NCBI GenBank assembly: GCA_021792835.1 | Contig: JAJYTY010000007.1 | Span: forward strand, 1 to 44,752 | Source: Pseudomonadota bacterium | Lineage (GTDB): Bacteria > Pseudomonadota > Gammaproteobacteria > Burkholderiales > Burkholderiaceae_C | Length of the DNA stretch: 44,752 nt | Direction: 5' to 3' | In this document: piece by piece, positions 9,951-33,602 of the stretch | Layout of the letters: each line of letters starts with the position of its first letter | Numbering within the stretch: the stretch's first letter is position 1 | Notes under the pieces: model-generated | Seen by the model: only the letters and a program-made list of their open reading frames with translations | Databases searched by the model: none | What the model was told of the DNA's origin: nothing | Program-made: the position numbers and the translations under genes

Positions 9951-11399
9951 ATGAAGACGACCCGCCGCCGTGTGCTGAGCGGCGCCGCGCAAGCTGCCGG
10001 CGCGGTAGCGTTGGGCGGTTGCAGCCGACGTGGCCTGGCCGGAGTGCTGTCGAATCCACGCAGCGATCCCGTGACGGCCGGCGCATCGAGGCCGGGCATC
10101 GCAGGCATCGCGATGGCGCGCTATTCGCCCCTTGCCAAGCCTCCCAAGCTGCGACCGTTCAACGATCCGGACTTCGGTTCGCGCATGGTGCGCATCACCG
10201 ACACGCTAGCGGACTTCGGGGCCCGCGTGGCAATGCCGGCCTATTCGAGTACCCAGGCGTGGAACTGCGACGAGACACTGTTGATCCTGTACGTGACTGA
10301 ACCGCGGGCAGGCGGGCATCAGGGTTGGGCGATGTTTGATGGCCATGACTATCGCTTCCTGCGCTTCATCGATATCAATCCATCGGATATCGAGCAGTTC
10401 TGGTGGTCGCGCACGGATCCACACGAGCTGCTTTACATCAGCAACTACGAACTCGGCACGACCGCGTATTGCCAGCTCACCGCGTACGACACGGCCGCCG
10501 AATCGCATCGTGTGCTTCATGACTTCGTGCCCGCACTGCGGCGTCTAGGTTGGCCGGCGCGTGGCCCGGTTCGTGCCGGCTACCCGTTTGCCAACGGTGG
10601 AGACAACCGGATCTGGGGCCTGGGTGCGGGAGGAATTCCCAACATCGATGGCTACCTCGGGCTCAACGTATTCGGCTTCGATCGTGCGAGCGGAGACATC
10701 ATCCGCTACCCGGCCGTGGCGCAGGCGCAGCCGCGGTTTCGCGTGCCGACGCCGCGCGTGTCCGGCCGCGGCTGGTTCTGGAACGACCCGCACCGGGATG
10801 ACGCCTACAACCTGACCTGGGTGCTCGATGCGCAAGGACGACTGGTACGCAAAGTTGCGTTCAGCAGCGCCGAGCACGTCGACAGCGCACTCAGTCCGCA
10901 AGGCCATGACCTGCTGGTCGGAGTGCAATATGACACCGCGGTGAAGGGCAACATGGTGGTCGCTGACCTCGACACCGGGGATATCCGTACCCTGGTCGGA
11001 ACCGCCAACGGTTATGGCTACCCGCGGACCGGCTCGTTCACCAGTTGCGTGGCCTATAAGGCGCCGAATCGGGTCGCTGGTGCGACCGTCGGTTCGCCCT
11101 TCGGTACCGACAATTCGCGCCCGGTGCGGCACCCTGCGACCTTGCTCGATCAGGAGGTGTTCGTGGCCGACCTTGACGGCGGTGACGTGCTGCGGGTCGC
11201 ACATCATCGCAGCACCGGCGCCTGGAGCGACGCTCGCGAGAGCAGCTACTGGGCGCAACCGAACGTGACCATCAGCCCTACCGGCACGCGCATCCTGGTT
11301 CAAAGCGATTGGGGATGCGGCGACCCGACGCAGCCGGTGATCGATCCAGGGGCGACCGTGGACACCTACGTCGTCGAGCTGCCGCAGTATCGCGCCTGA
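9951..11399 (+). CDS. Tat-targeted lipoprotein, predicted beta-propeller, paralogue of 33603-35093
   Basis: This 482-residue protein starts with a twin-arginine signal (TTRRRVLSGAA) ending in a lipobox LGGC (Cys24), so it should fold in the cytoplasm and be anchored as a lipoprotein after Tat export. The body shows motifs shared with its paralogue: DPDFGSRMVRITD, YSSTQAWNCDE, EQFWWS, GPVRAGYPFANGG, SGRGWFWND, AHHRSTGAWS and YWAQPNVTISPTGTRIL. The last is a WD40/TolB-like blade. The opening DPDFGSR plus YSSTQAWN pattern recalls oligogalacturonate-lyase-type (PL22-like) seven-blade propellers, but this is a faint resemblance and catalysis is unproven. The neighbouring tviBC genes make a uronic-acid sugar, so an action on the exopolysaccharide is a reasonable hypothesis. 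It follows the propeller lipoprotein by 6 bases and converges on tviC. Confidence 0.8.
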   Translation: MKTTRRRVLSGAAQAAGAVALGGCSRRGLAGVLSNPRSDPVTAGASRPGIAGIAMARYSPLAKPPKLRPFNDPDFGSRMVRITDTLADFGARVAMPAYSSTQAWNCDETLLILYVTEPRAGGHQGWAMFDGHDYRFLRFIDINPSDIEQFWWSRTDPHELLYISNYELGTTAYCQLTAYDTAAESHRVLHDFVPALRRLGWPARGPVRAGYPFANGGDNRIWGLGAGGIPNIDGYLGLNVFGFDRASGDIIRYPAVAQAQPRFRVPTPRVSGRGWFWNDPHRDDAYNLTWVLDAQGRLVRKVAFSSAEHVDSALSPQGHDLLVGVQYDTAVKGNMVVADLDTGDIRTLVGTANGYGYPRTGSFTSCVAYKAPNRVAGATVGSPFGTDNSRPVRHPATLLDQEVFVADLDGGDVLRVAHHRSTGAWSDARESSYWAQPNVTISPTGTRILVQSDWGCGDPTQPVIDPGATVDTYVVELPQYRA

Positions 11400-11411: not shown

Positions 11412-12476
11412 TCAGCTTGCCGCGACTTCACGTTGCGGCGGCACGTACCACGTCATCGCTTCGCGTAGGCCTTGGCGTACGCTGTGTGTCGGCTCATAGC
11501 CCAGCAGTGCACGTGCCTTGGCGATATCGGCCAGCGAATGCCGTACGTCCCCCTTGCGGAAGTCCCGGTACTGCGGGGCCCGTGTCTGGAGCCCCGGAAT
11601 GTGGTCGCGCAGGTTCTCCGTGAGCAGTTCATGCAGCTGGTTGAGCGTGGTCTGCTCACCATAGGCGATATTGAATATTTCGTGTCGCGCTCCCTGTGCT
11701 GGTACCAGCGCGGCCCGAAGATTGGCTTGCACCACGTTTGCGACGTAGCAGAAGTCGCGGGTTGTCTCGCCGTCACCATTGATCATGCATTGTTCATTGC
11801 GCGCGATGCGGCTTGCCCAGTTCGGGATCACCGCCGCATAAGCACCGTCGGGATCCTGGCGTGGCCCGAACACGTTGAAGTAGCGCAACCCGATGGTCTG
11901 CATGCTGTAGTTGCGGGTGAACACCCCGGCGTACAGCTCGTCAAGGTACTTGGTCACCGCGTAGGGCGAAAGCGGGTTGCCGATGCGGTCTTCAACCTTC
12001 GGCAGATCCGGGTGGTCGCCGTAGGTCGAGCTCGATGCGGCGAATACAAAGCGCGTACAGGCCGAGTCACGCGCCGCAACGAGCATGTTGAGAAATCCGG
12101 TGGCATTGACCGCATGCGTCCGCAAGGGGTCCTCGAGCGAGCGCGGGACCGAGCCCAGGGCGGCCTGGTGCAGCACGAACTCGACGTTTTTGCAGGCTAG
12201 TCGGCAAGTCGCCGGGTCGACGATGTCGCCTTCGATGAAGCGGTGGCGTCTCCATGCCTGTTCGCCGACCGTCGCGCGCACCTCATCGAGGTTGCGCCGG
12301 TAGCCGGTTGCGAAGTTGTCCAGGGTTGCCACTTCCTGTCCAGCCTGTAGCAGGGCCTGCAGCAGGTGCGAGCCAATGAATCCCGCGCTTCCGGTGACCA
12401 ACCAGCGCCGTGGCCGCGCCAACTCGTGCGCCAGGTCGAAGCCGGCCTGTAGTTCGGGCAATGCGAAGTCGCGCAT
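11412..12476 (-). CDS. tviC: UDP-N-acetylglucosamine/uronate 4-epimerase, TviC/WbpP-like
   Basis: This is a 354-residue extended short-chain dehydrogenase/reductase. It shows the NAD-binding GSAGFIGS (residues 29-36), the catalytic YxxxK as YAVTK (Tyr172, Lys176) and the upstream serine run [22 protein letters not shown] and [12 protein letters not shown] are typical of TviC/WbpP/WbgU, which interconvert UDP-GlcNAc(A) and UDP-GalNAc(A). It follows tviB with 11 bases between. A GTG at 12500 would give eight more residues and overlap tviB; ATG 12476 is preferred because TviC proteins start close to this point. With TviB it should supply UDP-GalNAcA for the repeat unit. Whether it acts before or after oxidation cannot be told. 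Confidence 0.88.
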
Positions 12477-12487
12477 CGTCGATTCCG

Positions 12488-13768
<1,281 letters not shown>

Positions 13769-13847
13769 ACTTCACCATCCAGGTTAGGGGTTATCGAAGC
13801 ATACGTGAGCCTTTGGGCCGACCAGCATGCCGATGCTGCAGAATCTC

Positions 13848-15254
13848 TCAGCGCGCGCCCTCGCCGCGCAGTACCACACGCACTGTCTCCAGGATGATCT
13901 GGATGTCCAGTACCAGGGAGTGGTTCTTCACGTAGTAGAGGTCGAATTGCAGCTTGCGCCGCGCGTCGGCCAGCGATGCGCCGTAGGAAAAGCGCACCTG
14001 GGCCCACCCGGTCAGTCCCGGCTTGACACTGTGGCGGATGGCGTAGAAGGGAATCTGCTCGGTGAGTTGTTCGACAAAGCTCGGGCGTTCCGGACGCGGG
14101 CCGACCAGGCTCATTTCGCCGCGAAGCACATTGAGCAGTTGCGGCAGTTCGTCGATACGAGTCTTGCGGATGAAGCGTCCGACTGCGGTGATCCGGCTGT
14201 CATTGGGTTGCGCCCAGCGTGCCACGCCATCCTTTTCCGCATCGGTGCGCATGCTTCGGAATTTGAGCACCTGGAAGGTACGCCCCGAACGGCCGACCCG
14301 CTCCTGACGAAACAGCACCGGGCCACCATCCTCGATCAGGATCGCCAGCGCGGTCAAGGCCATGATCCACCATGTTGCCGCAAGCAGGGCCAGAGCGACG
14401 AGGACGTCGAACAGACGCTTCATCGCGGTCCGCAGCCACCCCTGGGCGAAGCCGTTGCCATAGATCAACCAGCTGGCCTTGAGGCTGTCGAGAGGAACCT
14501 CGCCCTTGATGCGTTCGCTGAAAGTCGCCATCGAGTGCACCGCAATGCCGCGGGTACGGCAATCGAGCAGATGGCGCAGCGGCAGCACACCTCCGCGCTG
14601 TTCGCGCACGGCGACGACGATTTCGTCCACACCGTGCTTCAGCGCCTGCGCCAGCAGCGTATCTTTCGCATCGAGCAGCGGCGCCGGCAAAGACGCATCA
14701 TGCGCTTCCTCACGCTGTGCAGGATAGAAACCCGCGAGCCGATAGGCGCCATGAGTGTGGCGCTGGATGTCCAGTGCCACCGCCATGGCGTCGGCGCCGC
14801 AGCCCATGATCAGCACGTTGCGCAGCCACAGTCTGCGCGCATACACGCCAAGCAGCGGCTTGCGTATCAACAGCAGCCCGGCGAACTGATAGGCATAGGC
14901 CAGGCCGAGGAAGCGCAGCGCGTGGTGCCTGGGGTAAGCCAGCGTGAGCGCGGCGAAGAACAACGGGCCAACGCTGACGAAGGTCGAGAGCAGTACGCAA
15001 AGCAGCAGCGTGCGCAGCGAGCCGACGCGGTCGCGCTGATATGCGCCGAACGCGATGAACAGCATCAGCATCACCGTGGCGAAAATCAGTGCCAAGGGCA
15101 ACCACCGGACCATTTCAACTGCGGGTACCGGGTTGCCGTCGATCACCGCGAGCGTGCTGGCCGCGGCCAGCGCGGCCAGCAACAGCAGCAGGAAGTCCGT
15201 TCCCAGCTCCAGCACGGTCCGGGTCGGGACGTAATGGTCAAAGACTCGGATCAT
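13848..15254 (-). CDS. Polyprenyl-phosphate sugar phosphotransferase, XrtA/PEP-CTERM EpsB type
   Basis: This 468-residue membrane enzyme starts repeat-unit assembly by moving a sugar-1-phosphate from a UDP-sugar to undecaprenyl phosphate. The N-terminus [20 protein letters not shown] is close to the TIGR03013 family pattern. Hydrophobic helices and a cytoplasmic CoA-binding-like domain follow ([18 protein letters not shown]). The C-terminal bacterial sugar transferase domain has [62 protein letters not shown] and [10 protein letters not shown], ending with [10 protein letters not shown]. The frame runs upstream to 15392, but ATG 15254 fits the family start. It is the first gene of the leftward unit, divergent from the export lipoprotein. 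The transferred sugar is unknown. Confidence 0.92.
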
Positions 15255-15523
15255 CGCTAAGAGGTATCGTGTCGTAGCCGATTTCGCCGGCTGCGGCATG
15301 TGCGCCGGCAGGCAGGCCGGAGCACATGCGGTGGAGCTGAATTGCGCGAAGCGCACAACAAAAGCTACGCGAGGGCCGGATGATGTTTGCATAATGATGC
15401 CTGATGGTCACCCCCCGAATCGAGGTGACCGATGATTGCAGGCGTGACATAGACTGCTGGCACGATTGGCGCGGGGTTTGCCGCGCACCGTTGCGGCGCC
15501 CGCACGACGACCCTCATCGAACC
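15255..15523. promoter_or_regulatory. Divergent control region of the exopolysaccharide locus
   Basis: These 269 bases separate the leftward sugar transferase unit from the long rightward export unit, so promoters for both should lie here. No gene is supported; the rightward frame can be extended to 15404 but that part does not look like a signal peptide. It contains the RpoN-like element listed separately and a short inverted repeat, GGTCACC at 15406-15412 and GGTGACC at 15424-15430. Confidence 0.5.
15458..15473 (+). promoter_or_regulatory. Candidate sigma-54 (RpoN) -24/-12 promoter
   Basis: The sequence TGGCACG-ATTG-GCGCG matches the -24 half (TGGCACG) perfectly and keeps GC at -12 with the required 10 bases between GG and GC; the TT before the -12 GC is missing (GC instead). 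Transcription would start near 15484, about 40 bases before the export lipoprotein ATG. XrtA/PEP-CTERM systems are known to be controlled by a PrsK/PrsR pair with RpoN, which makes the site plausible. Confidence 0.4.
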
Positions 15524-16147
15524 ATGAATTCGTTCTTGAAATCGACTGCGCCGTTCGGTTGGCAGCTTTGCCTGGCCGCGTTGCTCACCCTCTTTCTTGC
15601 GGCTTGCGCGACCAACACCTTTCCGCCGGCTCCCAGGCATGTGGCCCTGTCGGACTATCACTATGTGATCGGCCCCGGTGACACGCTTCACATCGGTGTC
15701 TGGCAGAATCCGAATCTTTCATCGACAGTGACGGTCCGCCCCGACGGGCGAATATCCGCGCCCCTGGTCCAGGGGATCAAGGCCGCGGGTCTGACCCCGG
15801 ACCAGCTCGCGGGGGCCGTCCGGCAACGCATCTCGAAGTACGTGCGCGACCCGGTGGTCACGGTCGTGGTCAGCGACTTCCACGGGGCCCTCGGGCAGCA
15901 GGTGTCGATCGTCGGCGCGGCGGCGAAGCCCCAGAGCATTCCCTACCGCGACAACATGACGGTGCTGGACGCGATGATCGCTGCTGGCGGTCTGACGCCT
16001 TATGCCAACGGCAATGCCGCGGTGCTGATCCGCGATGGCAAGTCCTACAGCCTGCGTCTGGGAGATCTGCTGCGCGACGGCAAGATGGCTGACAACGTGC
16101 CCCTGCTTCCTGGAGACACGATTGTCATTCCGCAGGGCTGGTTCTGA
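15524..16147 (+). CDS. Polysaccharide export outer-membrane lipoprotein (Wza/EpsA-like)
   Basis: This 207-residue export protein has a signal peptide ending in lipobox LAAC (Cys28). The poly-export domain starts with YHYVIGPGDTLHIGVWQNP and includes VRPDGRISAPLVQGIKAAGLT, then an SLBB-like beta-grasp region (QVSIVGAAAKPQSIPY, TVLDAMIAAGGLTPYANGN). The length matches the short export proteins of XrtA loci (TIGR03027) rather than full-length Wza of about 380 residues, so it may form a channel together with the beta-barrel protein encoded next. ATG 15524 is chosen over the frame extension to 15404 because it places the signal peptide at the N-terminus. First gene of the rightward unit. Confidence 0.93.
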   Translation: MNSFLKSTAPFGWQLCLAALLTLFLAACATNTFPPAPRHVALSDYHYVIGPGDTLHIGVWQNPNLSSTVTVRPDGRISAPLVQGIKAAGLTPDQLAGAVRQRISKYVRDPVVTVVVSDFHGALGQQVSIVGAAAKPQSIPYRDNMTVLDAMIAAGGLTPYANGNAAVLIRDGKSYSLRLGDLLRDGKMADNVPLLPGDTIVIPQGWF

Positions 16148-16195: not shown

Positions 16196-17806
16196 ATGAT
16201 GAAAATGCGCCGACGTATCCTCCGGATCGCCGCGGTTGGTGCCTCGACCGCACTCGCTTCGGCCGCGGCCCTGGCGCAGGTCATTCCGCAGGTGCCGATG
16301 CCGGCCGAGGCTGGCTCGGACGCCGGAACCGCGGCCCACCCGGCCATGCCGCCGAATACCTATGTCGTGCCGTCCATCGCCGTGCTCGGCACAGCCACCA
16401 GCAATGCCGATCTGGGCACGGGCGCGGCGTCACGCTCCGACCAGACGCTGGAGCTCATTCCCCGGGTGTTCCTGATCTCTGATCATGCCCGTTGGCGACT
16501 CAATGCCGATCTCGGCGCGGACGCTCTGTACTACGCGCATGGATCACAGCCGAATTCGTTCGCGCCGAACGGCAACGCCAGCTTGCACTCCGAATTGGTC
16601 GATCGATTTCTGTACTTCGACGCGTCGATGAACGCGCAGCAGGAATCGATCAGCCCCTATGTAGGGCAGGGCGGGCCGCTCAGCAGCAGCAGCTATACCA
16701 GTGAGCAATTGCGCATCAGTCCCTATATCGATCGTTTGCTGCGCCCGGGCTTGCGCCTACGCGCGCGTAGCGACGACACATGGACGCATGCGAGCAATTC
16801 CTCGGGCAACGTTGCCGTCTCTGGTGGACGCTATCTCGACCAGAGCATCGACCTGACGCAGCAGCCGACCGCGTGGGGCTACACGCTGACGGCGAGGCAG
16901 ATCTATTCGACCTATACGGGCCAGCCCTATGCGTGGATGCGTGACACGACTGGGCGCGTGGTTCCGCAGTACGCGCTTTCGCAGCGCCTGATCGTCGGCC
17001 TCATCGGTGGACGCGAGAAGGTGCAGGTCCACGGCGACCAGGACACGGCGCCGATCTATGGGGCGATGGTGCGCTGGCGGCCACGGCCAGGCGATGGCGT
17101 GCAGGCGAGCTTCGAGCGGCGTTTCTTCGGTGCTGCGTGGAAGTTGCAGGCTGACGGCGGCACACCGTTGCTGCGCTTGCACCTCGATTGGTATCGCGAC
17201 ATCGGAAGCGAACTGGCCCCCCTGGGCAGTTCCAGCAGCGGAGCTGGCAACGTGACCCAGTTGCTCGACGGACTGTTCAGCACCCAGTACCCGAACCCGT
17301 TGCAGCGGGCCCAGGTCGTGCAGGCCCTGCTGGGAGAGGCCGGGCTGCCGCCCGGGCTGCCCACATCGGGGAATTTCTACACGTCGTCATCAATGTTGCA
17401 GAACAGTCTGATCGCGACTGGGGTGTTGTTGCATGAAAGAGACAATTTCGCGCTCTCTGTTTATCGCAATCGCACTGCCGATCTCTTCCTGCCAGGTCAA
17501 CAGGCGCTCGCGCTGTTGCAGGGGTTGTCCAACGACAACCTCCAGACCGGAGCGGCATTCAACTACGGGCATCGTCTTACACCGCTGGATACGTTGAACC
17601 TGACCTTGCAGCGCGAAGACGACACCGGGTTCGGTCCCAACCAGGGACGCAATGCGCGGCTGACGGCGCTGATTGCACAACTCGACCACCGCTTTTCTCC
17701 GCGTACCATCGGTCTTCTCGGAGTGCGGCGGCGGCTGCTGGTGTCCAGCGAGGTCGGCAACAGCAATGAAACGGCCCTGTTCGCCGGGCTCGTTCATCGG
17801 TTCTAG
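16196..17806 (+). CDS. Outer-membrane beta-barrel protein of the EPS locus (TIGR03016-like)
   Basis: This 536-residue protein has an N-terminal signal peptide (MRRRILRIAAVGASTALASAAALAQ). The rest alternates short amphipathic strands with polar loops and closes with GLVHRF, a C-terminal phenylalanine as in outer-membrane barrels recognised by BAM. Its size and place between the export lipoprotein and the ATPase fit the PEP-CTERM-system-associated outer-membrane family. It probably contributes the outer-membrane route for polymer export or secretion. A good SD (CAGGAG) lies 5-8 bases before two adjacent ATG codons (16196, 16199); either may be used. Function is inferred from fold type and context only. 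Confidence 0.8.
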   Translation: MMKMRRRILRIAAVGASTALASAAALAQVIPQVPMPAEAGSDAGTAAHPAMPPNTYVVPSIAVLGTATSNADLGTGAASRSDQTLELIPRVFLISDHARWRLNADLGADALYYAHGSQPNSFAPNGNASLHSELVDRFLYFDASMNAQQESISPYVGQGGPLSSSSYTSEQLRISPYIDRLLRPGLRLRARSDDTWTHASNSSGNVAVSGGRYLDQSIDLTQQPTAWGYTLTARQIYSTYTGQPYAWMRDTTGRVVPQYALSQRLIVGLIGGREKVQVHGDQDTAPIYGAMVRWRPRPGDGVQASFERRFFGAAWKLQADGGTPLLRLHLDWYRDIGSELAPLGSSSSGAGNVTQLLDGLFSTQYPNPLQRAQVVQALLGEAGLPPGLPTSGNFYTSSSMLQNSLIATGVLLHERDNFALSVYRNRTADLFLPGQQALALLQGLSNDNLQTGAAFNYGHRLTPLDTLNLTLQREDDTGFGPNQGRNARLTALIAQLDHRFSPRTIGLLGVRRRLLVSSEVGNSNETALFAGLVHRF

Positions 17807-17849: not shown

Positions 17850-19859
17850 ATGTACGAACAAGCCTACGGCCTCAGCGCGCCGCCTTTCCAACTCAATCCG
17901 GATCCGAGCTTCTACTTCGAGAGCAAGGGGCATTCGGCCGCATTCCAGTATCTTCGTTTCGGCGCGTTCCAGGGCGAGGGTTTCGTGGTTGTCACCGGCG
18001 AGATAGGCGCCGGCAAGACCACGTTGCTGCGCACCCTGCTGGCCGAACTCGATCCGGCTCGCGTCGTTGCGGCTCAACTGGTCAGCACGCAACTCGGCGC
18101 CGACGATCTTCTCTCCGCGGTGGCGCAGGCCTTCGGCATCAACGCCGAGGGGCTGAGCAAAGCCAGGCTATTGGTCACGCTTGAGGCGTACCTGGCCTCG
18201 TTGGCTACTGCGAACCGCCGCGCGCTGCTGATCATTGACGAGGCACAGAACCTCGATCTTGCTGCGATCGAGGAATTGCGCATGCTTTCGAACTTCCAGT
18301 TCGGAAATCAGGCGCTGCTGCAGAGCTTCCTCGTCGGGCAGCCCGAGCTGCGGCGCATGCTCAGCCTGCCGCAAATGGAACAGCTGCGGCAGCGCGTGAT
18401 CGCCAGCTACCACCTCGGTCCGATGAGCGAGGCCGAGAGCGCGGCCTACATCGTGCACCGCCTGCGACGCGTAGGCTGGAGCGGGCGACCTGCCTTCACT
18501 GAGGATGCCTTCGCCGCCATCCATCGAAGCTGCGGTGGCCTGCCGCGGCGCATCAACTCCCTCTGCAATCGACTCTTGCTGTCCGCGTACCTGGACGGTG
18601 CCGAGGCCATCGATGCACAGCGCGTGACGCGCGTGCATGGTGAGCTGAGAGCCGAAATCGACGGTGTGGGGACGGACAACGGGGCGACGCCGCGCATGAT
18701 CGGTGCGCCGCTGCTATGCGTGGCTTCATCGAGCTGGGGGCTGCTGGCGGTGGGGGCGCTGTTGGGCGCGTTTGCACAGCGCGAGGACCTGCCTCCGGTC
18801 AAGCTGCTTCGTTTCGTTGCCGACGGTCAGGTCGGTGACGAGCGAATGCGCCAGGACTTGCGCGATCTGGGTGTCGCTGACACTGGAATGGCGGTGGAGA
18901 TCCGGGCGAAAGACCGCCCGGGGCGCATCGCAGAAGTGGTCGGTGCACTGGCCGAATGCCTCGAACGCGACGCGCCGTGCGCCGTGGTGGTGGCTGGTGA
19001 CGGACCGTTCGACGCCATGTGCGCGGTCGCCGCATCGCAGGCGGGCGTCGCGGTCGTGCGGGTCGATGCCGGGCTGCGCAGCGGCAATTCCTCGGACCCG
19101 CAGGAACGGGCGCGTGCCATCGCAGACCATGCTGCGAGTCTGCTCTTCGTGAGCGAGCGAGTGGCATTGGAGCGCCTCGGGGCATCCGGCGCCGCGGAGG
19201 CTCCGGCGGCAATGGTCGGCGCCCTGGCGGCGGACGCCACGCGCCTTGGTCTTGCCACGATGGAAGCGGCAGAACGCACCCTGAGGCGCGAGGCGTTGCC
19301 GCTGGCGCTGCTGAATGATCCGGCCGGATTTACCCTGATCTGGCTCGAAGAGCTTCACCCGGGGCCCGCGCGCGAAGCCGTGTTCCAGGTTGACCGTGAG
19401 TTGCGCACACTGGGCTGGCGCTTGTCGTTGCTGTGGGCGCTGCCGGAGGCTGCCGGCTCGCCGCCTGTGCCGGCGGCCGATGCCGCTGTCGTCGGTTTGC
19501 AGCTGCTGACCGTGCGCCGGCACGCTGAACTGCTGGGGCTGATGCGCCATGCGCGTTGTCTGATCACGGACTGCGGCTGGCTGCAGGACCAGGCCAGCGC
19601 GCTCGGGCTGCCCTGTCTGACGGTCTCGGCAACGACCGAGCGCCAGGCTTCCGTGCTGACGGGTAGCAACCGCCTGGTCGGCCCCGATGCAGCGGTGATC
19701 GCCCGTGAGCTGGCCGAGCTGGTGGGCCACGGCAGTGGCCGCCGCGGCATACCCGAGATGTGGGATGGCCACGCCGCGTCCCGGATCGCAGCCAGGCTTG
19801 CCGACTGGCTCATGTCGCGCCAGGACGACGCCTACCGGCGCTACCTCGGTGGCGCGTGA
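17850..19859 (+). CDS. ExeA/XrtA-type AAA ATPase fused to a degenerate UDP-GlcNAc 2-epimerase domain
   Basis: This is a 669-residue fusion. Residues 1-270 are an XrtA-associated (GspA/ExeA-like) ATPase: MYEQAYGLSAPPFQLNPDPS start, Walker A GEIGAGKT (50-57), Walker B LLIIDEAQNL (126-135), a Q-E-L-R-R sensor region and GGLPRRINSLCNRLLL (229-244). Residues about 284-657 follow the complete fold order of WecB: a first strand/helix, LERDAPCAVVVAGDGPFDAM (371-390), VVRVDAGLRSGN (402-413), LITDCGWLQDQASALGLP (571-588), TTERQA (595-600) and WDGHAASRIAARLADWL (638-654). Most catalytic and UDP-contacting residues are changed, so this half is probably a pseudoenzyme. It lies between the outer-membrane protein and the chain-length determinant. 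The hydrophobic stretch at 285-310 aligns with WecB's first strand and helix, so it need not be a membrane anchor. Confidence 0.88.
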   Translation: MYEQAYGLSAPPFQLNPDPSFYFESKGHSAAFQYLRFGAFQGEGFVVVTGEIGAGKTTLLRTLLAELDPARVVAAQLVSTQLGADDLLSAVAQAFGINAEGLSKARLLVTLEAYLASLATANRRALLIIDEAQNLDLAAIEELRMLSNFQFGNQALLQSFLVGQPELRRMLSLPQMEQLRQRVIASYHLGPMSEAESAAYIVHRLRRVGWSGRPAFTEDAFAAIHRSCGGLPRRINSLCNRLLLSAYLDGAEAIDAQRVTRVHGELRAEIDGVGTDNGATPRMIGAPLLCVASSSWGLLAVGALLGAFAQREDLPPVKLLRFVADGQVGDERMRQDLRDLGVADTGMAVEIRAKDRPGRIAEVVGALAECLERDAPCAVVVAGDGPFDAMCAVAASQAGVAVVRVDAGLRSGNSSDPQERARAIADHAASLLFVSERVALERLGASGAAEAPAAMVGALAADATRLGLATMEAAERTLRREALPLALLNDPAGFTLIWLEELHPGPAREAVFQVDRELRTLGWRLSLLWALPEAAGSPPVPAADAAVVGLQLLTVRRHAELLGLMRHARCLITDCGWLQDQASALGLPCLTVSATTERQASVLTGSNRLVGPDAAVIARELAELVGHGSGRRGIPEMWDGHAASRIAARLADWLMSRQDDAYRRYLGGA

Positions 19860-19960
19860 GCCGGGGCAACCCGGATCGGCCGTGGTCGGGGCTGCGCCAA
19901 ATCTTGAACTGTGAACGCACTAACATCCACGAAATATTCCTGCCCGCGCACCCCAAGACC

Positions 19961-21520
19961 ATGGACGATCTGCTGGCCCCGCTGTTCAACCTTCTACCTG
20001 CCATGTGGGGGAAGCGCTGGTGGGGGCTTGCCGTCGCCTGGCTCGTCGCTCTGCTCGGTGCGTTCGGCGTGCTGCATTACAAAGAGCGCTACCTGGCCAG
20101 CGCCACCGTATACGTCAATACGCAAAGCATGCTGCGGCCCCTGCTCGAGGGCCTGGCGGTGCAGCCGGATGTCGGGCAGCAGGTGTCGATGCTCGCCCGG
20201 ACGTTGTTGTCTCGCAGCAATATCGAGGAAATCATCGATCGAAACCACCTACTGCCCCCCGGTGCGTCGGCGTTCAAGCGCGACCTGCTCATCCAGCGCT
20301 TGACCCAAACCATCGGATTGAAGATCAACGGGCGCGACAACATCTACGAAGTGTCGTTCATCGGCACCGATCCGCAGCAGACGCTTGGCGTCGTGCGAAC
20401 CTTGATGGATCTGTTCGTGCAGTCCGGGCTGGCCGGGAATCGGCGTGATTCGACGCAGGCACTGCAGTTCATCGATAGTCAGATCTCGCTGTACCAGACC
20501 AAGTTGGCCGAGACCGATTCCGCGCTGGACAAATTCCGCGCCGAGCACCCCTCGGTCGCACAGCAGAGCGGCGCCAGTTTCGCGGCGCGGCAATCGCAGT
20601 TGCAGGACCAACTCATGCTGTTGCAGAGCCAGCTCGCCGCAGCGCAGAGCGCGCGCAGCAGCCTGCAATCACAGCTCAGCCAGGTGCCGCCGACGCTGCC
20701 CCAGGCCGACGCGGCGGCGGGAGGCAACGGCGCGATGGCGCCCACTGGCGGAATCGATGCGCGTATCGCCGCGCAGCGCCAACGGCTCGACGACCTGTTG
20801 CAGCGCTATACGGACGCCTACCCCGACGTGATTTCGGCGCGTGCCGAGCTGGCGCGCCTGGAGGCCGAGAAGCGGCATGAGGCGGGCGCGGGCCATAATC
20901 AGCTCCCGCATTCCGTGATTTCGCAGGCGACCAATCCAGCCTATCAACAGCTGAGCGTCAGCCTCGCACAGGCCGATGCGGGCGTGGCCGCTCTGCAGTC
21001 GCAGATCGGCAACGTGCGCGGACAACTGCAGTCCCTGACGCGCCTGCAGATCGGTGACAGCGGGATCGACGCCCGGTACCAGAAACTGCTTCGCGAGCGC
21101 AGTCTGCTCGAGGACAGCTACCAGAACCTTGCGCGACGCAAGGAGTCCGCGACCCTTTCGCGCAATCAGGATCTGAGCCGGCGCGACGACGTATTCCGCG
21201 TCATCGATCCGCCGCGCCTGGCCCCGGTTGCGCTGTTTCCGCGGCGAACCTTCCTCATCGCGCTGGTGCTTCTGCTCGCAGTCGGGCTGGGGGCGGTCGC
21301 GAGCTATCTGCTGGTCGTCGTGTTTCCCACCTACCGAACCGCGCGCCAACTGCGCGAGACGACGCAGCGTGCCGTGCTTGGCCCGATATCGCTGGTGCGC
21401 ACTGCTGGCGCGGTCTCGCACGAGCGCAGGCAGCTCGCGGTCTTCGTTGCGGCCAGCGGGATCCTGGTGATCGGCTTCATCGTCTGGACCCTGGCCAGCA
21501 TGCTGCACTGGATCCATTGA
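19961..21520 (+). CDS. Exopolysaccharide chain-length determinant (Wzz-like, XrtA type)
   Basis: This 519-residue polysaccharide co-polymerase sits in the inner membrane with a large periplasmic coiled-coil loop. The first transmembrane helix is near residues 21-40 (WWGLAVAWLVALLGAFGVLHY), followed by the Wzz domain (YLASATVYVNTQSMLRPLLEG). Long glutamine/alanine-rich coiled coils include LQDQLMLLQSQLAAAQSARS. A second helix is at FLIALVLLLAVGLGAVASYL and a third hydrophobic segment lies at the C-terminus (VFVAASGILVIGFIVWTLAS). The match is to the TIGR03007 family of XrtA loci. The open frame extends to 19760, overlapping the ATPase gene, but ATG 19961 starts the conserved sequence. It works with the BY-kinase encoded 11 bases downstream to set polymer length. 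Confidence 0.92.
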   Translation: MDDLLAPLFNLLPAMWGKRWWGLAVAWLVALLGAFGVLHYKERYLASATVYVNTQSMLRPLLEGLAVQPDVGQQVSMLARTLLSRSNIEEIIDRNHLLPPGASAFKRDLLIQRLTQTIGLKINGRDNIYEVSFIGTDPQQTLGVVRTLMDLFVQSGLAGNRRDSTQALQFIDSQISLYQTKLAETDSALDKFRAEHPSVAQQSGASFAARQSQLQDQLMLLQSQLAAAQSARSSLQSQLSQVPPTLPQADAAAGGNGAMAPTGGIDARIAAQRQRLDDLLQRYTDAYPDVISARAELARLEAEKRHEAGAGHNQLPHSVISQATNPAYQQLSVSLAQADAGVAALQSQIGNVRGQLQSLTRLQIGDSGIDARYQKLLRERSLLEDSYQNLARRKESATLSRNQDLSRRDDVFRVIDPPRLAPVALFPRRTFLIALVLLLAVGLGAVASYLLVVVFPTYRTARQLRETTQRAVLGPISLVRTAGAVSHERRQLAVFVAASGILVIGFIVWTLASMLHWIH

Positions 21521-21531
21521 CAGGAGCGATC

Positions 21532-22422
21532 GTGGGAATCATCGAACAAGCCAGCAAACGACTTGAAGAGCTGCGCCGCTCCGGAGTGGACTTGCCGTGG
21601 GCGCAGGCCAGCGACGCGCCGAGTCCGCAGCAGCCGGCGGCGCTGGCCGGATCGTTGCAGGAACTCGCCGCGGCGCCGGCCCTGCGGGCGCCGCTGGGCC
21701 ATGTCGACCTCGACCTGGTGGGTCTTGCAGCCGCTGGCTACCTGGTGCCAGGCGCGCCCCGGTCGCGGCTGCTCGACGAAATGCGCACCGTCAAGCGGCC
21801 GTTGCTCGCAAACGCGGTTGGAGCTGCGGGCCGCGAACGTACCGAACGCGGCAACCTGATCATGATCACCAGCAGTCTGCCCGGAGAGGGCAAGACCTTC
21901 ACTTCGGTGAATCTGGCGATCAGCATGGCGCTGGAGCTCAACCACAGTGTGCTGTTGGTCGACGCGGATCCTACTCGCATGGCCTTGGCGCAACGCCTGG
22001 GAGTCACCGGGACCCGACGCGGGCTCCTCGATCTGCTGCTCGATGCATCGCTCGATCTCGCGGACGTCGAACTCGCGACAAACGTCGCCGGACTGAGCTA
22101 CCTTCCGGCCGGAACGCAGCACCAGCTTGCCACCGAGATCTTCGGCAGCGACGCGATGGCGGCGCTGCTTGGCCGGCTGGCGGCGCACGCGGAGCAGCGT
22201 ATCGTGGTGTTCGACGCGCCACCGCTGCTGCACGCGGCCGAGGCTCGGGTGCTCGCGCCGCAGATGGGCCAGGTCGTTCTGGTGGTGCACGCCGGGAAGA
22301 CCCCGCGGGGCTCGGTGCAGCACGCCCTGCGCCTGCTTGACGAGTGTTCGCTTGTGATGACTTTGCTGAACCAGTCGCGGGGCGCGGTTGCGTCCTCGCC
22401 GTACGGCTACTACGCGTACTAA
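21532..22422 (+). CDS. BY-family tyrosine autokinase of the EPS locus
   Basis: This 296-residue cytoplasmic kinase partners the separately encoded chain-length determinant. The ATP site has Walker A SSLPGEGKT, Walker A' VLLVDADP and Walker B IVVFDAPP. The C-terminus ends YGYYAY, a short tyrosine cluster for trans-autophosphorylation. The start is GTG 21532, preceded by AGGAG seven bases upstream; a TTG at 21517 inside the previous stop region is rejected. The match is to the XrtA-system kinase family (TIGR03018). Phosphorylation cycling controls assembly of the co-polymerase and so polymer length and yield. The GNAT-type gene follows after 3 bases. Confidence 0.9.
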   Translation: MGIIEQASKRLEELRRSGVDLPWAQASDAPSPQQPAALAGSLQELAAAPALRAPLGHVDLDLVGLAAAGYLVPGAPRSRLLDEMRTVKRPLLANAVGAAGRERTERGNLIMITSSLPGEGKTFTSVNLAISMALELNHSVLLVDADPTRMALAQRLGVTGTRRGLLDLLLDASLDLADVELATNVAGLSYLPAGTQHQLATEIFGSDAMAALLGRLAAHAEQRIVVFDAPPLLHAAEARVLAPQMGQVVLVVHAGKTPRGSVQHALRLLDECSLVMTLLNQSRGAVASSPYGYYAY

Positions 22423-26687: not shown

Positions 26688-27817
26688 GCGCCGCGGGAAT
26701 CTTCTGGAGCGCGGTGGGAGTGGTGGCCTACACCTATGCCGGCTATCCGCTGCTGATTGCCGGGATGGCGCGTCTGCACCCCGCGGCGCGGCGGGAGCCC
26801 GATGCCACGGAACAGACTCCCCGGGTCAGTGTCGTGATGTCGGCATATAACGAAGCTGCGCGTCTACCCGCAAAGCTGCGCAATCTGCGCGAACTCGCGT
26901 ACCCCCGAGACCGTCTGGCGATCGTGGTCGTGTCCGACGGCTCCACGGACGGCACGGAGCGCGTTGCGCAGGGCGAGCCCGGAGTACATGTCGTGGTCAG
27001 TCGGCAGCGTCGCGGCAAGGCACACGCGCTGAACCTGGCGATGCGGGAGGTGCACGGCGACATCGTCGTGTTCTGCGATCTGCGTCAGGAGCTTGACGCG
27101 GTCGCAGTGCGGCGGCTGGTCGATGAACTGCGCGACCCCTCGGTCGGCGTGGCCAGCGGAGAACTCATGCACCGTCCGGGCGCGACAGCGACGGGACGCA
27201 GCATCGGCCTGTACTGGCGCTATGAAAAGTGGATCCGCAAATCCGAAAGCCGCCTGTATTCGACCGTAGGTGCCACCGGAGCCCTGTATGCGATGCGCCG
27301 CGCCGACTGGCGTGACCTGCGCGAAGGCACGATCCTCGACGACTTCGAGAACCCGATGCAGGTGGTGCGTCGGGGCAAGCGCGCGGTTCTGGCGTCCCAG
27401 GCACTGGCCTGGGATACGCTTCAGGAGGACTCGGCGATCGAGAAGCGCCGCAAGATCCGTACTCTCAGCGGAAACTTCCAGAGCTTCGCCGCGAATCCCT
27501 GGCTGTTCTCTCCGTTGGCCAACCCTGTCTGGTTCCAGTTCGTTTCGCACAAGGTGCTGCGGCTGCTGGTGCCCTACGCGTTGCTGGTCGCGCTCGCGGC
27601 GAGCCTGGCCGCGTCGGGCTGGATGTACCGCGCCGCGTTCGCGTTGCAGGCCCTGTTCTACCTGATGGCCGGTGCGGGGCGCTGGATACCGAGCAGCCGG
27701 CGCTCGCGGCTGGTCAGCTTCGCGCACGTGTTCGTCGATATGAACCTTGCCGCGGTGCTTGCGCTGCTCCGCTTCGCCGGCGGAGATGCCGATGCAAAGT
27801 GGGAGAAGACGTCGTGA
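26684..27817 (+). CDS. Membrane-linked glycosyltransferase family 2
   Basis: This 377-residue GT-A glycosyltransferase has an N-terminal hydrophobic helix (IFWSAVGVVAYTYAGYPLLIA) and a GT2 domain with VSVVMSAYNEAARL, VVVSDGSTDGTE, VSRQRRGKAHALNLAM and FCDLRQELD in place of the usual D-x-D. Later come ILDDFENPMQVVRRGKRA and the QxxRW-like region RRKIRTLSGNFQSF; C-terminal hydrophobic helices follow. Overall it resembles the processive/ICA-like GT2 type. The GTG start overlaps the previous stop as GTGA, which implies translational coupling. It probably extends the lipid-linked repeat unit; the donor is unknown. The FCDLRQ variant of the metal site is worth checking. Confidence 0.87.
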   Translation: MSAAGIFWSAVGVVAYTYAGYPLLIAGMARLHPAARREPDATEQTPRVSVVMSAYNEAARLPAKLRNLRELAYPRDRLAIVVVSDGSTDGTERVAQGEPGVHVVVSRQRRGKAHALNLAMREVHGDIVVFCDLRQELDAVAVRRLVDELRDPSVGVASGELMHRPGATATGRSIGLYWRYEKWIRKSESRLYSTVGATGALYAMRRADWRDLREGTILDDFENPMQVVRRGKRAVLASQALAWDTLQEDSAIEKRRKIRTLSGNFQSFAANPWLFSPLANPVWFQFVSHKVLRLLVPYALLVALAASLAASGWMYRAAFALQALFYLMAGAGRWIPSSRRSRLVSFAHVFVDMNLAAVLALLRFAGGDADAKWEKTS

Positions 27818-28596
27818 ATCGGGTCGTCGTGTTGATGTATCACGCGCTGTGGAGCAATGCGGCCGAACTGAGCCGCATCGATCCCACGGACCGGTCCTAC
27901 GCGTTGCCGCTGACCGAGTTCGTGGCGCAACTCGACGCTCTGCGCGAGCGAGGCATTGGCGTGTTGGACCCGGCTTCACTCCAGCACGGTGTCCCGGAGC
28001 AAGGAGGCGTTGTCTTGAGCTTCGATGATGGCCATGCGAGCAACGCCGAGCTCGCGCTTCCAGAATTGCGCCGCCGCGGCATGCAAGCGGTGTTTTTCGT
28101 CAGCACGGCCCATGTCGATCGCCCCGGGTTCTGCTCAGCCGGGCAGCTGAGGGAGCTGGCCGCGGCGAACATGCTGGTCGGCGCGCATGGCCACACCCAT
28201 CGGTTTCTCAGCGAGCTGGGCGACGCCGATCTCGCCGACGAACTGCGCGCATCGCAGGCCGTGCTCGGTGCTGCGCTGGGAGCATCTGCGCGGCACATGT
28301 CGTTTCCGGGCGGGCGCCTGGATGCCCGCAGTATGGCCGCAGCTCGCCGCGCCGGCTTCGAAGTGCTGTACGGTTCGGCGGTAGGCTCGCTGCGCCCGGG
28401 CGCCCGGCTGCCCGCAGGGGCGCTGCCGCGCATTGCGGTGCGTCCCGGGCTGAGCATTGCCAAGTTCGTCGACTTCGCGCGAGCGGCCCCGGCGCGCATG
28501 GCCCGCAGCCGCGCCACGGCAGCCGCCAAGAATGCAGCCAGAACCCTCTTGGGCAATGAACGTTATCACCGACTGTATGCGCGATTGCGAAGCTGA
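27814..28596 (+). CDS. Polysaccharide deacetylase (NodB/CE4), copy 1
   Basis: This 260-residue protein belongs to carbohydrate esterase family 4, which removes N-acetyl groups from amino sugars. Motif 1 is SFDDGHASN, with the two metal/catalytic aspartates. Motif 2 is HGHTHRFLSEL, with H-x3-H metal ligands. FPGGRLDARS stands in the motif 3 position. The start is GTG 27814 with GGGAG about 9 bases upstream and a GTGA overlap with the previous stop; GTG 27799 is the alternative. No signal peptide is seen, so it may act in the cytoplasm on precursors or be a non-exported variant. It is the first of three CE4 genes in the locus. Confidence 0.88.
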   Translation: MNRVVVLMYHALWSNAAELSRIDPTDRSYALPLTEFVAQLDALRERGIGVLDPASLQHGVPEQGGVVLSFDDGHASNAELALPELRRRGMQAVFFVSTAHVDRPGFCSAGQLRELAAANMLVGAHGHTHRFLSELGDADLADELRASQAVLGAALGASARHMSFPGGRLDARSMAAARRAGFEVLYGSAVGSLRPGARLPAGALPRIAVRPGLSIAKFVDFARAAPARMARSRATAAAKNAARTLLGNERYHRLYARLRS

Positions 28597-29749
28597 TCCC
28601 GGGCAGACACGAGGGCGGCTTATCGTTCATATGATCGATGAACTGCCGCGCGATGGTGCGGAAATGCTGCTGCTCGACCTGCTGCGCCTGCGTCTGCCGG
28701 ACTTTCGCTACGCGGTCGTCTGCCTGGTGCGCGGCGGCGTGCTGCAACCCGAGTTCGAACGAATCGGCGTTCCGGTGACCGTGTTCGGCCGGCGCGGGCG
28801 TTTCGATCCCATGCTCGTGTGGCGTCTGGCGCGGTGGCTGCGGCGGCACCGCGCAGACGTGGTACATACACATCTGTTCACCGCTGACAGCTACGGACGC
28901 GTCGCTGCGCGCCTTGCCGGCGTTCCGGCCGTGTTCTCTACCGTGCACAACATTGCACCGGCCGGCGCCGGGCCCCTGCGCGGCGTCGTGTCGCGCATTC
29001 TCGCCCGCTTCACCACGGCGATTGTCGGCTGCAGCGATGAAGTATCGCAGGCGCTGATCCAGCGCGACGGGCTCGAGCCGGCGCGAGTGCGGTCGATTCC
29101 CAACGGGATCGATCTGATGCGTTTCGGGCAGGCAAGTGGCGAAGGCGTGCGCGAGGAATTCAAGCTTCCAGGCACGCGTCGGCTGATTGGTGTAGTCGGT
29201 CGCCTGCACGAGCAGAAGGGTCACGACGATCTGCTGCGCGCGCTGGCTTCGCTGCCGCAGCCGCTGCGCGGCAACCTGAGCTGCCTGATCATTGGAACCG
29301 GCGAACTGGAAGCCGAACTGCGCCGGCGCGTGGAGGAGTTGGGCTTGGCCGACTGCGTGGTATTCACCGGGATGCGCACCGATGTGCCACGACTGGTGGC
29401 CGCACTCGACGCCTTTGTCATGCCATCCCGCTGGGAAGGGCTGCCGATCGCCCTGCTGGAAGCCATGGCGACGTCGCGCGCGGTACTGTGCACGCGGGTC
29501 GGTGGCATTCCCGACGTCGTCGTCCATGCGACCAACGGCTTGCTGGTGGATGCGGGGGACGTGGACGCACTGCGTTCCGGCATCGAGACGCTGCTGGCGG
29601 ATCCCGGGTTCGCGCAACGGCTTGGTCGGCAGGCGCGCGCGACGGTGATCGAGCGTTTTGACGTGAGTCGTACTGCCGCCGCGTACAACGAGTTGCATTG
29701 CGCGGCCCTCGGGCTGGGGTGCCGCGATACGCCGGGGATCCTGCCATGA
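28556..29749 (+). CDS. Glycosyltransferase family 4
   Basis: This 397-residue GT-B glycosyltransferase starts its fold with LIVHMIDELPRDGAEMLLLD, followed by DVVHTHLFTADSYGRVAARL and SIPNGIDLMRF. The C-terminal donor domain has IGVVGRLHEQKGHDDLLRALA, LIIGTGELEAEL, VVFTGMRTDVPRLVAALDAF and PSRWEGLPIALLEAMATSRAVLCTRVGGIPDVV, with the standard E-G-x-P-x-x-x-x-E. It overlaps the deacetylase before it by 41 bases, or by 20 if ATG 28577 is used; neither start has a clear SD. It overlaps the next deacetylase by ATGA. Donor and acceptor are unknown. Confidence 0.9.
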   Translation: MNVITDCMRDCEADPGQTRGRLIVHMIDELPRDGAEMLLLDLLRLRLPDFRYAVVCLVRGGVLQPEFERIGVPVTVFGRRGRFDPMLVWRLARWLRRHRADVVHTHLFTADSYGRVAARLAGVPAVFSTVHNIAPAGAGPLRGVVSRILARFTTAIVGCSDEVSQALIQRDGLEPARVRSIPNGIDLMRFGQASGEGVREEFKLPGTRRLIGVVGRLHEQKGHDDLLRALASLPQPLRGNLSCLIIGTGELEAELRRRVEELGLADCVVFTGMRTDVPRLVAALDAFVMPSRWEGLPIALLEAMATSRAVLCTRVGGIPDVVVHATNGLLVDAGDVDALRSGIETLLADPGFAQRLGRQARATVIERFDVSRTAAAYNELHCAALGLGCRDTPGILP

Positions 29750-30600
29750 AGGCTGCGCTGCGCTCTCTGGTGGCGGCGATCTGCCGCCCGGCGACGCGAG
29801 CATCCGAGCGCGCGCGGCCCGGTTTGCGCGTACTGATGTATCACCGTGTCGCCCGCGTGGACGGATTCGATCAATTGACCGTATCGCCGGAGCGCTTCGA
29901 TGCGCAAATGCGTGCCTTGGCGGCGAGCCGACGCGTGGTGGGACTGGTCGACGGCTTGCGCGCGGTGCGTGCAGGTGCACTTGACCAGCCCATGGTTGCC
30001 GTCACTTTCGACGATGGCTATCTGGACAACCTCGTCGAGGCTGCGCCGATCCTGCTGCGCCATGGAGTTGCCGCAACCGTGTTCGTGAGCACCGGATTCT
30101 GCGAGCAGACGATGGTGCACCCACGCTACGCGGCGTACGCACGGTCGCGCTTGCATCTCGATTGGGATGAGGTGGCCGAGCTGGCTTCGCTGCCCGGTAT
30201 CGAAATCGGATCGCATACCGACACCCATCCCTACCTGCCGCGCCTGCCGGACGCGCGGGCTCGGGAGGAGATCGCAGGCAGTCGCGATCGAATCGCGCGG
30301 CGCCTCGGCCGCGACGTGCGTGCGTTTTGCTACCCGTCGGGCGACGTCGGGGCGCGTGAAGCAAGGCTGGCACTCGATGCCGGCTACGAATTCGCGGTGA
30401 CCGTAAGCCCCGGGGTGAACCGTCGCGGCTTCGACCCGATGCTTGTCCGGCGTACCGAAATCACTCAACGCGACGATGCGGAGGCCTTCGCACTCAAGCT
30501 CGACGGTGCCTTCGATCCGTTGCATCGACTGCTGCATGTGCGCCGGCAATGGCGCTTCGAGCGCGCGCGGGCCACGTCCCAAGGCAACGACCAATCATGA
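29746..30600 (+). CDS. Polysaccharide deacetylase (NodB/CE4), copy 2
   Basis: This 284-residue carbohydrate esterase 4 protein has LRVLMYHRVARVDGF, motif 1 TFDDGYLDN, motif 2 SHTDTHPYLPRL (H-x3-H) and motif 3 CYPSGDVG. All the usual ligands are present, so it should be an active metal-dependent N-deacetylase. The ATG overlaps the upstream glycosyltransferase stop as ATGA, and the downstream glycosyltransferase overlaps its stop in the same way, so the three are translationally coupled. Alternation of GT4 and CE4 genes suggests stepwise assembly and deacetylation. No signal peptide is evident. Confidence 0.9.
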   Translation: MKAALRSLVAAICRPATRASERARPGLRVLMYHRVARVDGFDQLTVSPERFDAQMRALAASRRVVGLVDGLRAVRAGALDQPMVAVTFDDGYLDNLVEAAPILLRHGVAATVFVSTGFCEQTMVHPRYAAYARSRLHLDWDEVAELASLPGIEIGSHTDTHPYLPRLPDARAREEIAGSRDRIARRLGRDVRAFCYPSGDVGAREARLALDAGYEFAVTVSPGVNRRGFDPMLVRRTEITQRDDAEAFALKLDGAFDPLHRLLHVRRQWRFERARATSQGNDQS

Positions 30601-31767: not shown

Positions 31768-32523
31768 ATGATCGCGCAGATCGAGAGCCTGTTCACGCCG
31801 TTGGCCGCCGCCACCGTCGCCAGCGTGTCGCTCGCGGCGTGGATCTGCTGGCATTGCCGCTCCCGCTGGCTTTGCGCGGCAGCCTGCGCCAACGCGCTAC
31901 TGCTGTACTTGCCGTCGACCCCGCTCGTGGCCAACTGGGCGCTGGGTACGCTCGAGCATCGCGCGCTGGCACTTCGGCGCTGCGGCCCGCCTCCGGCGCA
32001 CAGCCTGATCATCGTTCTGGCCGGCGGGGTGCACGGCCATCCCGCGGCGCCTGATGACTACCAGGATCTGTCGCAGAGCAGCCTGCGACGCGTGATCGCG
32101 GCGTCGCGCCTCGCGCTTCGCAGTTCCGGTTCGACCCTGGTCTTGTCAGGCGGGGCCGGGGGACGCTGGCGCGAAGCCGACCTGATGGCTGCCCTGGCGC
32201 GGCGGCTCGGCGTGCCCGCGGCGCGCATCCAGGAGGACCGCGATTCGATGACCACCTATGACAGTGCGCTGAATCTGCGCCGGATGCTCGCGGGTAATTC
32301 CCACCCGCGATATCTGGTGACGTCGGCCTACCACATGCCGCGCGCGTGGATGTCCTTTCGCCATACCGGCCAAGCGGTGTGCGCATGGCCAGTGGACTTT
32401 CGCGCCTATCCGCTGGAGCCGCTGCAGATGCTGATGCCGCAGATCACGGCTCTGGAGAAGACCGGACTCGCGTTGCATGAATGGGCGGGTATGATCGTTT
32501 ACAGGTGGTTTGAATTTCGCTAG
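31768..32523 (+). CDS. YdcF/ElyC-family (DUF218) membrane protein
   Basis: This 251-residue protein has two N-terminal hydrophobic segments (PLAAATVASVSLAAWICW and ACANALLLYLPSTPLVANWAL) and a DUF218 domain. The domain carries VLAGGVHGHP, STLVLSGGAGGRWREADLM, TTYDSALNLRRML and YLVTSAYHMPRAWMSFRHTG, the family's conserved S/G-rich and H-x-x-R elements. ElyC affects undecaprenyl-phosphate-dependent envelope synthesis in E. coli, so a link to the lipid carrier used by this locus is a plausible inference. The open frame extends to 31612, but ATG 31768 gives a clean membrane start. Its 3' end lies close to the next deacetylase gene. Confidence 0.85.
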   Translation: MIAQIESLFTPLAAATVASVSLAAWICWHCRSRWLCAAACANALLLYLPSTPLVANWALGTLEHRALALRRCGPPPAHSLIIVLAGGVHGHPAAPDDYQDLSQSSLRRVIAASRLALRSSGSTLVLSGGAGGRWREADLMAALARRLGVPAARIQEDRDSMTTYDSALNLRRMLAGNSHPRYLVTSAYHMPRAWMSFRHTGQAVCAWPVDFRAYPLEPLQMLMPQITALEKTGLALHEWAGMIVYRWFEFR

Positions 32524-32572
32524 GCGCGTGGATCGGGTCACCGCAGCCATCACCGAAGGAACGCAGCTGGAA

Positions 32573-33514: not shown

Positions 33515-33602
33515 AAATGAAACACATACCAAAGCGATTTGCTGTCTTGGGGGCCACGCGGCATCTGCCGGCTGTTACCTTGATTTCCTGGAGTCCTTTG
33601 CC

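Follow-up and report, generated by a model that had tools for sequence, protein, structure and literature searches.

Why should an ATPase of a polysaccharide export locus carry, in the same chain, the fold of a sugar epimerase whose chemistry seems to be gone? The question is raised by the window analyzed here, a stretch of 44,752 nucleotides from a Pseudomonadota bacterium (contig JAJYTY010000007.1 of assembly GCA_021792835.1), in which a single gene joins an ATPase of the XrtA-locus type to a domain resembling the UDP-GlcNAc 2-epimerase WecB (Table 1). An initial annotation of this DNA had proposed that an enzyme was captured as a UDP-sugar sensor or scaffold that could couple precursor level to ATPase-driven export.

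Both halves of the 669-residue frame described there were recovered by profile searches: the ATPase half covers positions 1–269 of the 269 in the TIGR03015 model and passes the family cut-off (360.5 bits), and PF02350 matches residues 325–650 with 123 bits against a cut-off of 30.6. In an alignment of 20 fused proteins, G50 and I52–T57 of the Walker A motif and D130–L135 of the Walker B motif are invariant. Against the wecB model TIGR00236, the fused protein reaches 89 bits, below the cut-off of 210.15. An AlphaFold2 model of the fused protein (20-protein alignment) has a mean pLDDT of 74 and a pTM of 0.55, with ten-residue pLDDT means of mostly 73–92 over residues 285–657; when these residues were compared with the PDB by Foldseek, all 50 matches listed were UDP-GlcNAc 2-epimerases and close relatives, the best E-value among them being 1.1e-18 and the TM-score by target reaching 0.83. 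On the strength of this confidence and these matches, the whole C-terminal half is predicted to adopt the WecB fold, as had been supposed. For the ATPase half, which is modeled less well, we relied on the TIGR03015 family match.

Table 1. Positions of the fused gene, its parts and its neighbors in the window.
Feature	Position	Strand	Basis or remark
TviC-like epimerase	11412..12500	-	NF011728, 429 bits, below cut-off 760
TviB-like nucleotide-sugar dehydrogenase	12488..13768	-	NF011729, 497.6 bits (below cut-off 592); TIGR03026, 389.3 bits (cut-off 189.8)
XrtA-system polysaccharide export protein	15404..16147	+	TIGR03027, 212.1 bits, cut-off 180
PEP-CTERM-associated outer-membrane protein	16196..17806	+	TIGR03016, 168.1 bits, cut-off 90.85
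Fused gene, XrtA-locus type ATPase + pseudo-WecB	17850..19859	+	669 aa, ATG start, without internal stop
AAA ATPase domain, residues 1–269	17850..18656	+	TIGR03015, 360.5 bits, cut-off 324.5
Walker A GEIGAGKT, residues 50–57	17997..18020	+	Translation
Walker B LLIIDEAQNL, residues 126–135	18225..18254	+	Translation
Short linker, about residues 271–284	18660..18701	+	pLDDT <50; helical tail of stand-alone ATPases absent
Pseudo-WecB domain, GT-B fold, about residues 285–657	18702..19820	+	PF02350 and Foldseek
Former GTRPEAIK loop, now VASSSWGLLA (R10, K15 lost)	18723..18752	+	WecB alignment
RxDLP motif, residues 311–315, gained by fused clade	18780..18794	+	Motif count
D406 at E117 position	19065..19067	+	E. 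coli WecB alignment
Q418 at E131 position	19101..19103	+	E. coli WecB alignment
E500 at H213 position	19347..19349	+	E. coli WecB alignment
TDCGWLQDQ replacing loop TDSGGxQEE	19566..19592	+	Translation and alignment
XrtA-system chain-length determinant	19760..21520	+	TIGR03007, 370.5 bits, cut-off 278.85, aligned from residue 78
XrtA-associated tyrosine autokinase-like protein	21517..22422	+	TIGR03018, 213.6 bits, below cut-off 230.65

Alignment with E. coli WecB confirmed the motif readings given earlier (ASSSWGLLA, RVDAGLR, LEELHPG, TDCGWLQDQ, and TERQA) and placed Ser at R10, Ala at K15, Asp at E117, Gln at both E131 and E296, Glu at H213, and Cys at S290, with SGG becoming CGW and TERPE becoming TERQA. 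Among eight key residues (R10, K15, D95, E117, E131, H213, S290, and E296 in E. coli numbering), only D95 is kept in the window’s protein, so that the catalytic set D95, E117, E131, and H213 reads D, D, Q, and E, and a Trp occupies the phosphate loop. In the portions of PMC11464976 available to us, D95, E117, and E131 are named for E. coli WecB, and an E135A variant (equivalent to E. coli E131) had activity too low for any kinetics; R10, K15, R135, H213, S290, and E296 were mapped by alignment from the Paenibacillus table of that paper. Across the 41 fused proteins described below, E131 survives in one, H213 in three, and K15 in four, and no protein keeps more than five of the eight. Of the published allosteric UDP-GlcNAc positions, Q38 survives in 2 of the 41, H39 in none, and R214 in 1, compared with 51 of 51 separate epimerases for each. 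By sequence, the WecB-fold domain is a pseudoenzyme, and it is presumably catalytically inert.

The comparison set was gathered from 100 relatives, 399 genomes of the order, and GTDB contigs (the best 80 of 121), the contig search being biased in that it used peptides of the window’s own protein. It holds 137 distinct ATPases, of which 41 are fused, 51 have an adjacent separate epimerase (a complete ORF ending 600–1800 bases after the ATPase ORF), and 45 have neither, that is, no epimerase passing the filter, in some cases for want of sequence; before counting, we dropped duplicates by the first 600 residues (e.g., L034, L035, and L051) as well as fused copies truncated at a contig end (L015 and L053). 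A sequencing-made or chimeric join is ruled out by the 41 distinct fused proteins, which settles one doubt raised at the outset. The initial statement that WecB is a separate enzyme in relatives also holds: two more separate adjacent epimerases were found beyond the 51, and in Rubrivivax the two genes are consecutive in the accessible part of PMC3684757. In the separate epimerases, 18 of 19 checked residues are present in all 51, and P314 is present in 50.

TIGR00236, a curated model independent of the sequences collected here, divides the two groups: against its cut-off of 210, every fused row listed scored 40–159 bits or, for G005, G009, and G012, had no listed match in the fused domain, compared with about 301–310 bits for adjacent separate epimerases (e.g., G073, G080, G054, G038, and G098). 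A small in-house HMM, built on two separate epimerases together with E. coli WecB, gave at least 478 for complete separate epimerases and 63–283 for fused ones. The fusion is carried by the window’s genus, by Aquabacterium and relatives, and by two other lineages within the family, G032 and G322, with two copies each; the second G322 copy (L165) is a very divergent fused ATPase-epimerase. None of the long open frames from the order-wide search (best matches listed, three candidates scored per genome) joined the ATPase to a catalytically intact epimerase, although such a search could have missed one; the long-frame TIGR03015-like rows that were fetched either stop before a separate epimerase or have a long upstream frame, except for the two fused copies of G322. 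In four loci (L026, L031, L180, and L181), the ATPase and an intact epimerase follow one another, are read in one frame, and are parted by no more than a stop codon and a few bases, a possible pre-fusion arrangement. In one genome, the strongest Epimerase_2 match (G000:C140:3710-4738; L001 and L115) was found by alignment to be without the non-hydrolysing WecB motifs, and may be a NeuC-type hydrolysing epimerase.

Phylogenies place the fused proteins together. In the ATPase tree, thinned from 137 to 90 rows, 25 fused sequences lie on one side of a branch with an SH-aLRT value of 98, and in the epimerase tree, whose 72 rows comprise E. coli WecB, 30 of the 51 separate epimerases, and all 41 fused sequences, the latter lie on one side of a branch with a value of 99, nested inside operon-borne separate epimerases. 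Both trees are quick ones without bootstrap, and their long branches call for caution. Since the fused proteins form one clade in both, a single event fits, and one fusion of neighboring genes followed by loss of catalysis is probably the simplest history. Several independent fusions are unsupported by the trees, with the long branches of L135, L165, L174, and L024 leaving the outermost members unsure. In the ATPase tree, a metagenome-assembled contig titled Bordetella parapertussis (L077) groups with Rubrivivax/Aquabacterium-type sequences, and its title is probably wrong.

The fused and stand-alone ATPases differ after the ATPase domain. Stand-alone ATPases are 55–167 residues longer (median 95; 96 proteins), the addition consisting of a variable stretch and then a helical segment. 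An AlphaFold2 model built on 23 of them (mean pLDDT 65, pTM 0.41) has pLDDT below 50 at residues 271–300, followed by one predicted helix at 310–361 with pLDDT mostly 69–85. Fused linkers measure 14–91 residues in the seven cases listed, those of G032 being longer. Two loose and length-biased measures were also counted: an R-L-E-like core, a pattern of three positions, occurs in all 96 stand-alone tails and in 9 of the 41 fused linkers, whereas 87 of the 96 tails and 1 of the 41 linkers have a heptad run of at least four. Against shuffled sequences, the heptad score reached 0.05 in only 6 of 17 stand-alone tails. Because the R-L-E pattern is short and most fused linkers do not reach the length of stand-alone tails, we base our reading on the predicted helix and on tails read by eye, by which the predicted helical tail is missing from the fused proteins. 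The tail itself may serve assembly. Several of the linkers in the Thiomonas-I subclade (L016–L022) and L165 contain an LDLDL-like stretch. It resembles the LDVDL that precedes the helix in stand-alone ATPases of the Rubrivivax type and may be what is left of the former tail.

The surroundings of the gene differ as well. An exosortase lies near the ATPase in 29 of 30 loci with a separate epimerase (4.1–5.9 kb, center to center) and in 0 of 31 fused loci. These counts come from tblastn hits to one exosortase, and the fused loci included were those whose sequence continues for 5.9 kb or more beyond the ATPase ORF. In G216, the single separate locus without a near exosortase, one lies about 10 kb away, and in G059, G322, and G032, exosortases lie on other contigs or megabases from the fused genes. 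In profile searches, PF09721 exosortases were found in 0 of 28 genomes of the window’s genus and in 24 of 24 distinct genomes outside it, 11 of them fused. PF07589 PEP-CTERM tails were found in 0 of the 28, in a search whose own controls gave no match either; PF07589 matched five of six related genomes, the exception being G032, a fused genome. The ATPase thus belongs to the TIGR03015 family by sequence, yet no XrtA sorting system was seen in the window’s genus, and the lack of detectable exosortase or PEP-CTERM proteins there suggests that the ATPase serves polysaccharide export and not protein sorting.

Within the window, the first start codon of the chain-length determinant ORF falls inside the fused gene, and its true start is probably further downstream. 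The TviB/TviC-like pair (11412–13768, minus strand), which diverges from the export genes and adjoins the fused gene, is present in 10 of 11 loci of the genus listed, the eleventh being without the flank. A switch of polymer sugar signaled by this pair was considered and rejected as unspecific; a TviB-like gene is found in 16 of 30 separate loci longer than 12 kb, and none of 15 fused loci from outside the genus has one, so it says little on why the epimerase died. Three long plus-strand ORFs of the polysaccharide region (13827–15260, 9951–11399, and 33474–35093) have no NCBIfam match, the first two having no Pfam match either, and three others on the same strand (27799–28596, 29698–30600, and 32510–33514) match polysaccharide deacetylase models weakly. 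No RNA family matched in the window.

We consider it probable, at roughly 0.6, that the pseudoenzyme domain replaced the ATPase's C-terminal helix and acts as an assembly or docking module. An XrtA-locus ATPase gene would have fused once with the adjoining wecB of the operon; the C-terminal helical tail would have been lost, and the epimerase half, losing catalysis, would have been retained as a folded non-catalytic domain. That domain would take over the tail’s job, either holding ATPase subunits together or docking to the export machinery, for which the export protein, the TIGR03016 protein, and the chain-length determinant are candidate partners, and it would do so in a locus that has lost its exosortase linkage. 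We favor assembly or docking as the putative role because the substrate site is gone and a large folded body stands where the stand-alone protein has a helix. The fuller account, in which the locus parted from its exosortase and the ATPase swapped a helical assembly tail for an epimerase that later became a chemically dead structural part, is offered tentatively, at somewhat less than even odds.

The alternative that survives best, though we think it improbable, is that the fused enzyme became useless and its domain has been drifting ever since, tolerated because it does no harm. The graded decay of the domain would agree with such drift, the in-house HMM score falling from about 280 in the Aquabacterium branch to 63 in Thiomonas-D, the subclade of the window, whose C-domain evolves fast (mean pairwise identity 0.44) and could also fit slow decay. 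In pairwise NG86 estimates for 14 listed pairs per fused clade, C-domain dN/dS was 0.01–0.36 in the Aquabacterium branch, 0.15–0.40 in Thiomonas-I, and 0.23–0.66 in Thiomonas-D, compared with 0.16–0.47 for active separate epimerases (25 pairs listed); by these ranges, constraint in the Aquabacterium branch and Thiomonas-I matches that on the working enzyme, and Thiomonas-D is clearly looser. In each of the 42 fused pairs, the value for the ATPase half was lower than that for the C-domain. Against mere drift stands the finding that the C-domain value was below 1 in all 42, although saturation of dS tends to raise dN/dS. Among 28 genomes of the window’s genus, moreover, all 18 complete copies contain the whole domain; one further copy is cut by a contig end (G004). 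The remaining nine genomes show no such ATPase, so the system is dispensable, which weighs against our favored reading. Also against drift, clade-specific invariant residues have arisen: the motif R.[DEG]LP is found in 38 of 41 fused proteins compared with 2 of 51 separate epimerases, and residues 311, 313, 314, and 315 reach a conservation of 0.89–1.00 in the three main fused clades. Furthermore, the fused proteins have no helical tail left to do the tail’s work. The open frames of the 41 copies were not counted on this side, since they are open partly by construction. Taken together, the estimates indicate continued constraint on the C-domain, and with one clade and one probable origin they strongly support the earlier suggestion that an enzyme was captured as a non-catalytic domain.

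Two further ideas about where that constraint falls were tried. Faster decay of the pocket than of the rest was not significant, with retention of 0.39, 0.38, and 0.26 against 0.54, 0.47, and 0.33 elsewhere, and random samples as low as the pocket in 0.105, 0.233, and 0.253. A retained dimer interface received no specific support. In S. aureus MnaA (PMC4856313, in the part available), a helix is placed at the interface of the WecB dimer; for this helix, mapped only roughly to E. coli 63–82, conservation in the fused clades was not clearly above average (0.55, 0.62, and 0.48 vs. 0.68, 0.63, and 0.44).

A sensor, in which the dead epimerase would bind UDP-GlcNAc or a related nucleotide sugar and couple precursor level to the ATPase, is less probable still. 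The GT-B fold it would need is kept, and the Aquabacterium branch (n = 19) retains R10 in 18 of 19 proteins, a basic residue (Arg) at the K15 position in 19 of 19, and E117, E295, E296, and R313 in 19 of 19. Pocket columns are also as conserved within clades as other formerly invariant columns in the Aquabacterium branch (0.77 vs. 0.75) and Thiomonas-I (0.79 vs. 0.68). The window’s protein, however, has lost R10, K15, E131, H213, and E296 and carries the Trp in its phosphate loop, ligand residues are missing from its subclade as well, the allosteric positions are gone from nearly all fused proteins, and in Thiomonas-D the pocket columns are not better kept than the others (0.35 vs. 0.43). A UDP-sugar sensor role is therefore unlikely for the window’s protein, and UDP-sugar binding is conceivable in the Aquabacterium branch, where several ligand residues survive. 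Of the two roles first proposed, the sensor falls with the lost substrate and allosteric residues, and the scaffold would fit better because the fusion is without the C-terminal helix of stand-alone ATPases. That the domain is instead an altered enzyme, using new residues to catalyze some other conversion of a different nucleotide sugar, is very improbable: the fold is kept and the substituted pocket residues are conserved (pairwise identity 0.79 in Thiomonas-I and 0.77 in the Aquabacterium branch), but the catalytic and phosphate-loop positions hold unlike residues that differ between subclades.

That the fusion is kept across several genera with its chemistry gone suggests that ATPase and WecB belong together for a non-catalytic reason. 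If WecB already bound the ATPase before they were fused, ordinary XrtA loci would hold an unrecognized ATPase-epimerase complex tying precursor supply to export. There is also a practical consequence for annotation, in that reading the fused gene as a UDP-GlcNAc 2-epimerase could credit genomes with a ManNAc pathway they may lack. Of 20 fused genomes, 12 show no WecB above the TIGR00236 cut-off, which speaks for our favored reading, and the other eight encode one elsewhere in the genome, which speaks against it.

Pseudoenzyme domains fused to partner proteins, in which an enzyme fold without catalytic residues forms part of a larger protein, are a familiar theme. We are not aware of any WecB joined to the ATPase of an export locus. 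A search of the open-access literature by title and abstract returned no paper on the fusion, an absence that is not proof, and the words ATPase and epimerase do not occur in the available portions of papers on Thiomonas biofilms (PMC3158062), PEP-CTERM (PMC1569441), and Aquincola flocs (PMC9850573). For Rubrivivax, the available text of PMC3684757 gives the psc1 locus as the ATPase RGS1_10397, then epsC RGS1_10398 (UDP-N-acetylglucosamine 2-epimerase), nodB, and femA; by its table entry, R. gelatinosus RGS1_10397 is probably the stand-alone TIGR03015 form.

Compared with functional WecB (also MnaA or RffE), represented by E. coli 1f6d, the fused domain shares the full GT-B fold (TM-score by target 0.80–0.83 over four 1f6d chains), yet it is without the substrate, catalytic, and allosteric residues and falls below the TIGR00236 cut-off. 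Compared with stand-alone TIGR03015 ATPases, such as those of the Rubrivivax loci L068, L076, and L086, the window’s protein has the same ATPase domain over the whole model and similar neighbors (export protein, chain-length determinant, tyrosine kinase, and TIGR03016 protein), although in the window’s genus the chain-length and kinase genes follow the ATPase, whereas in stand-alone loci they precede it. The stand-alone form has a long helical tail, often a separate intact wecB next to it, and an exosortase 4–6 kb further on; the fused form has none of these.
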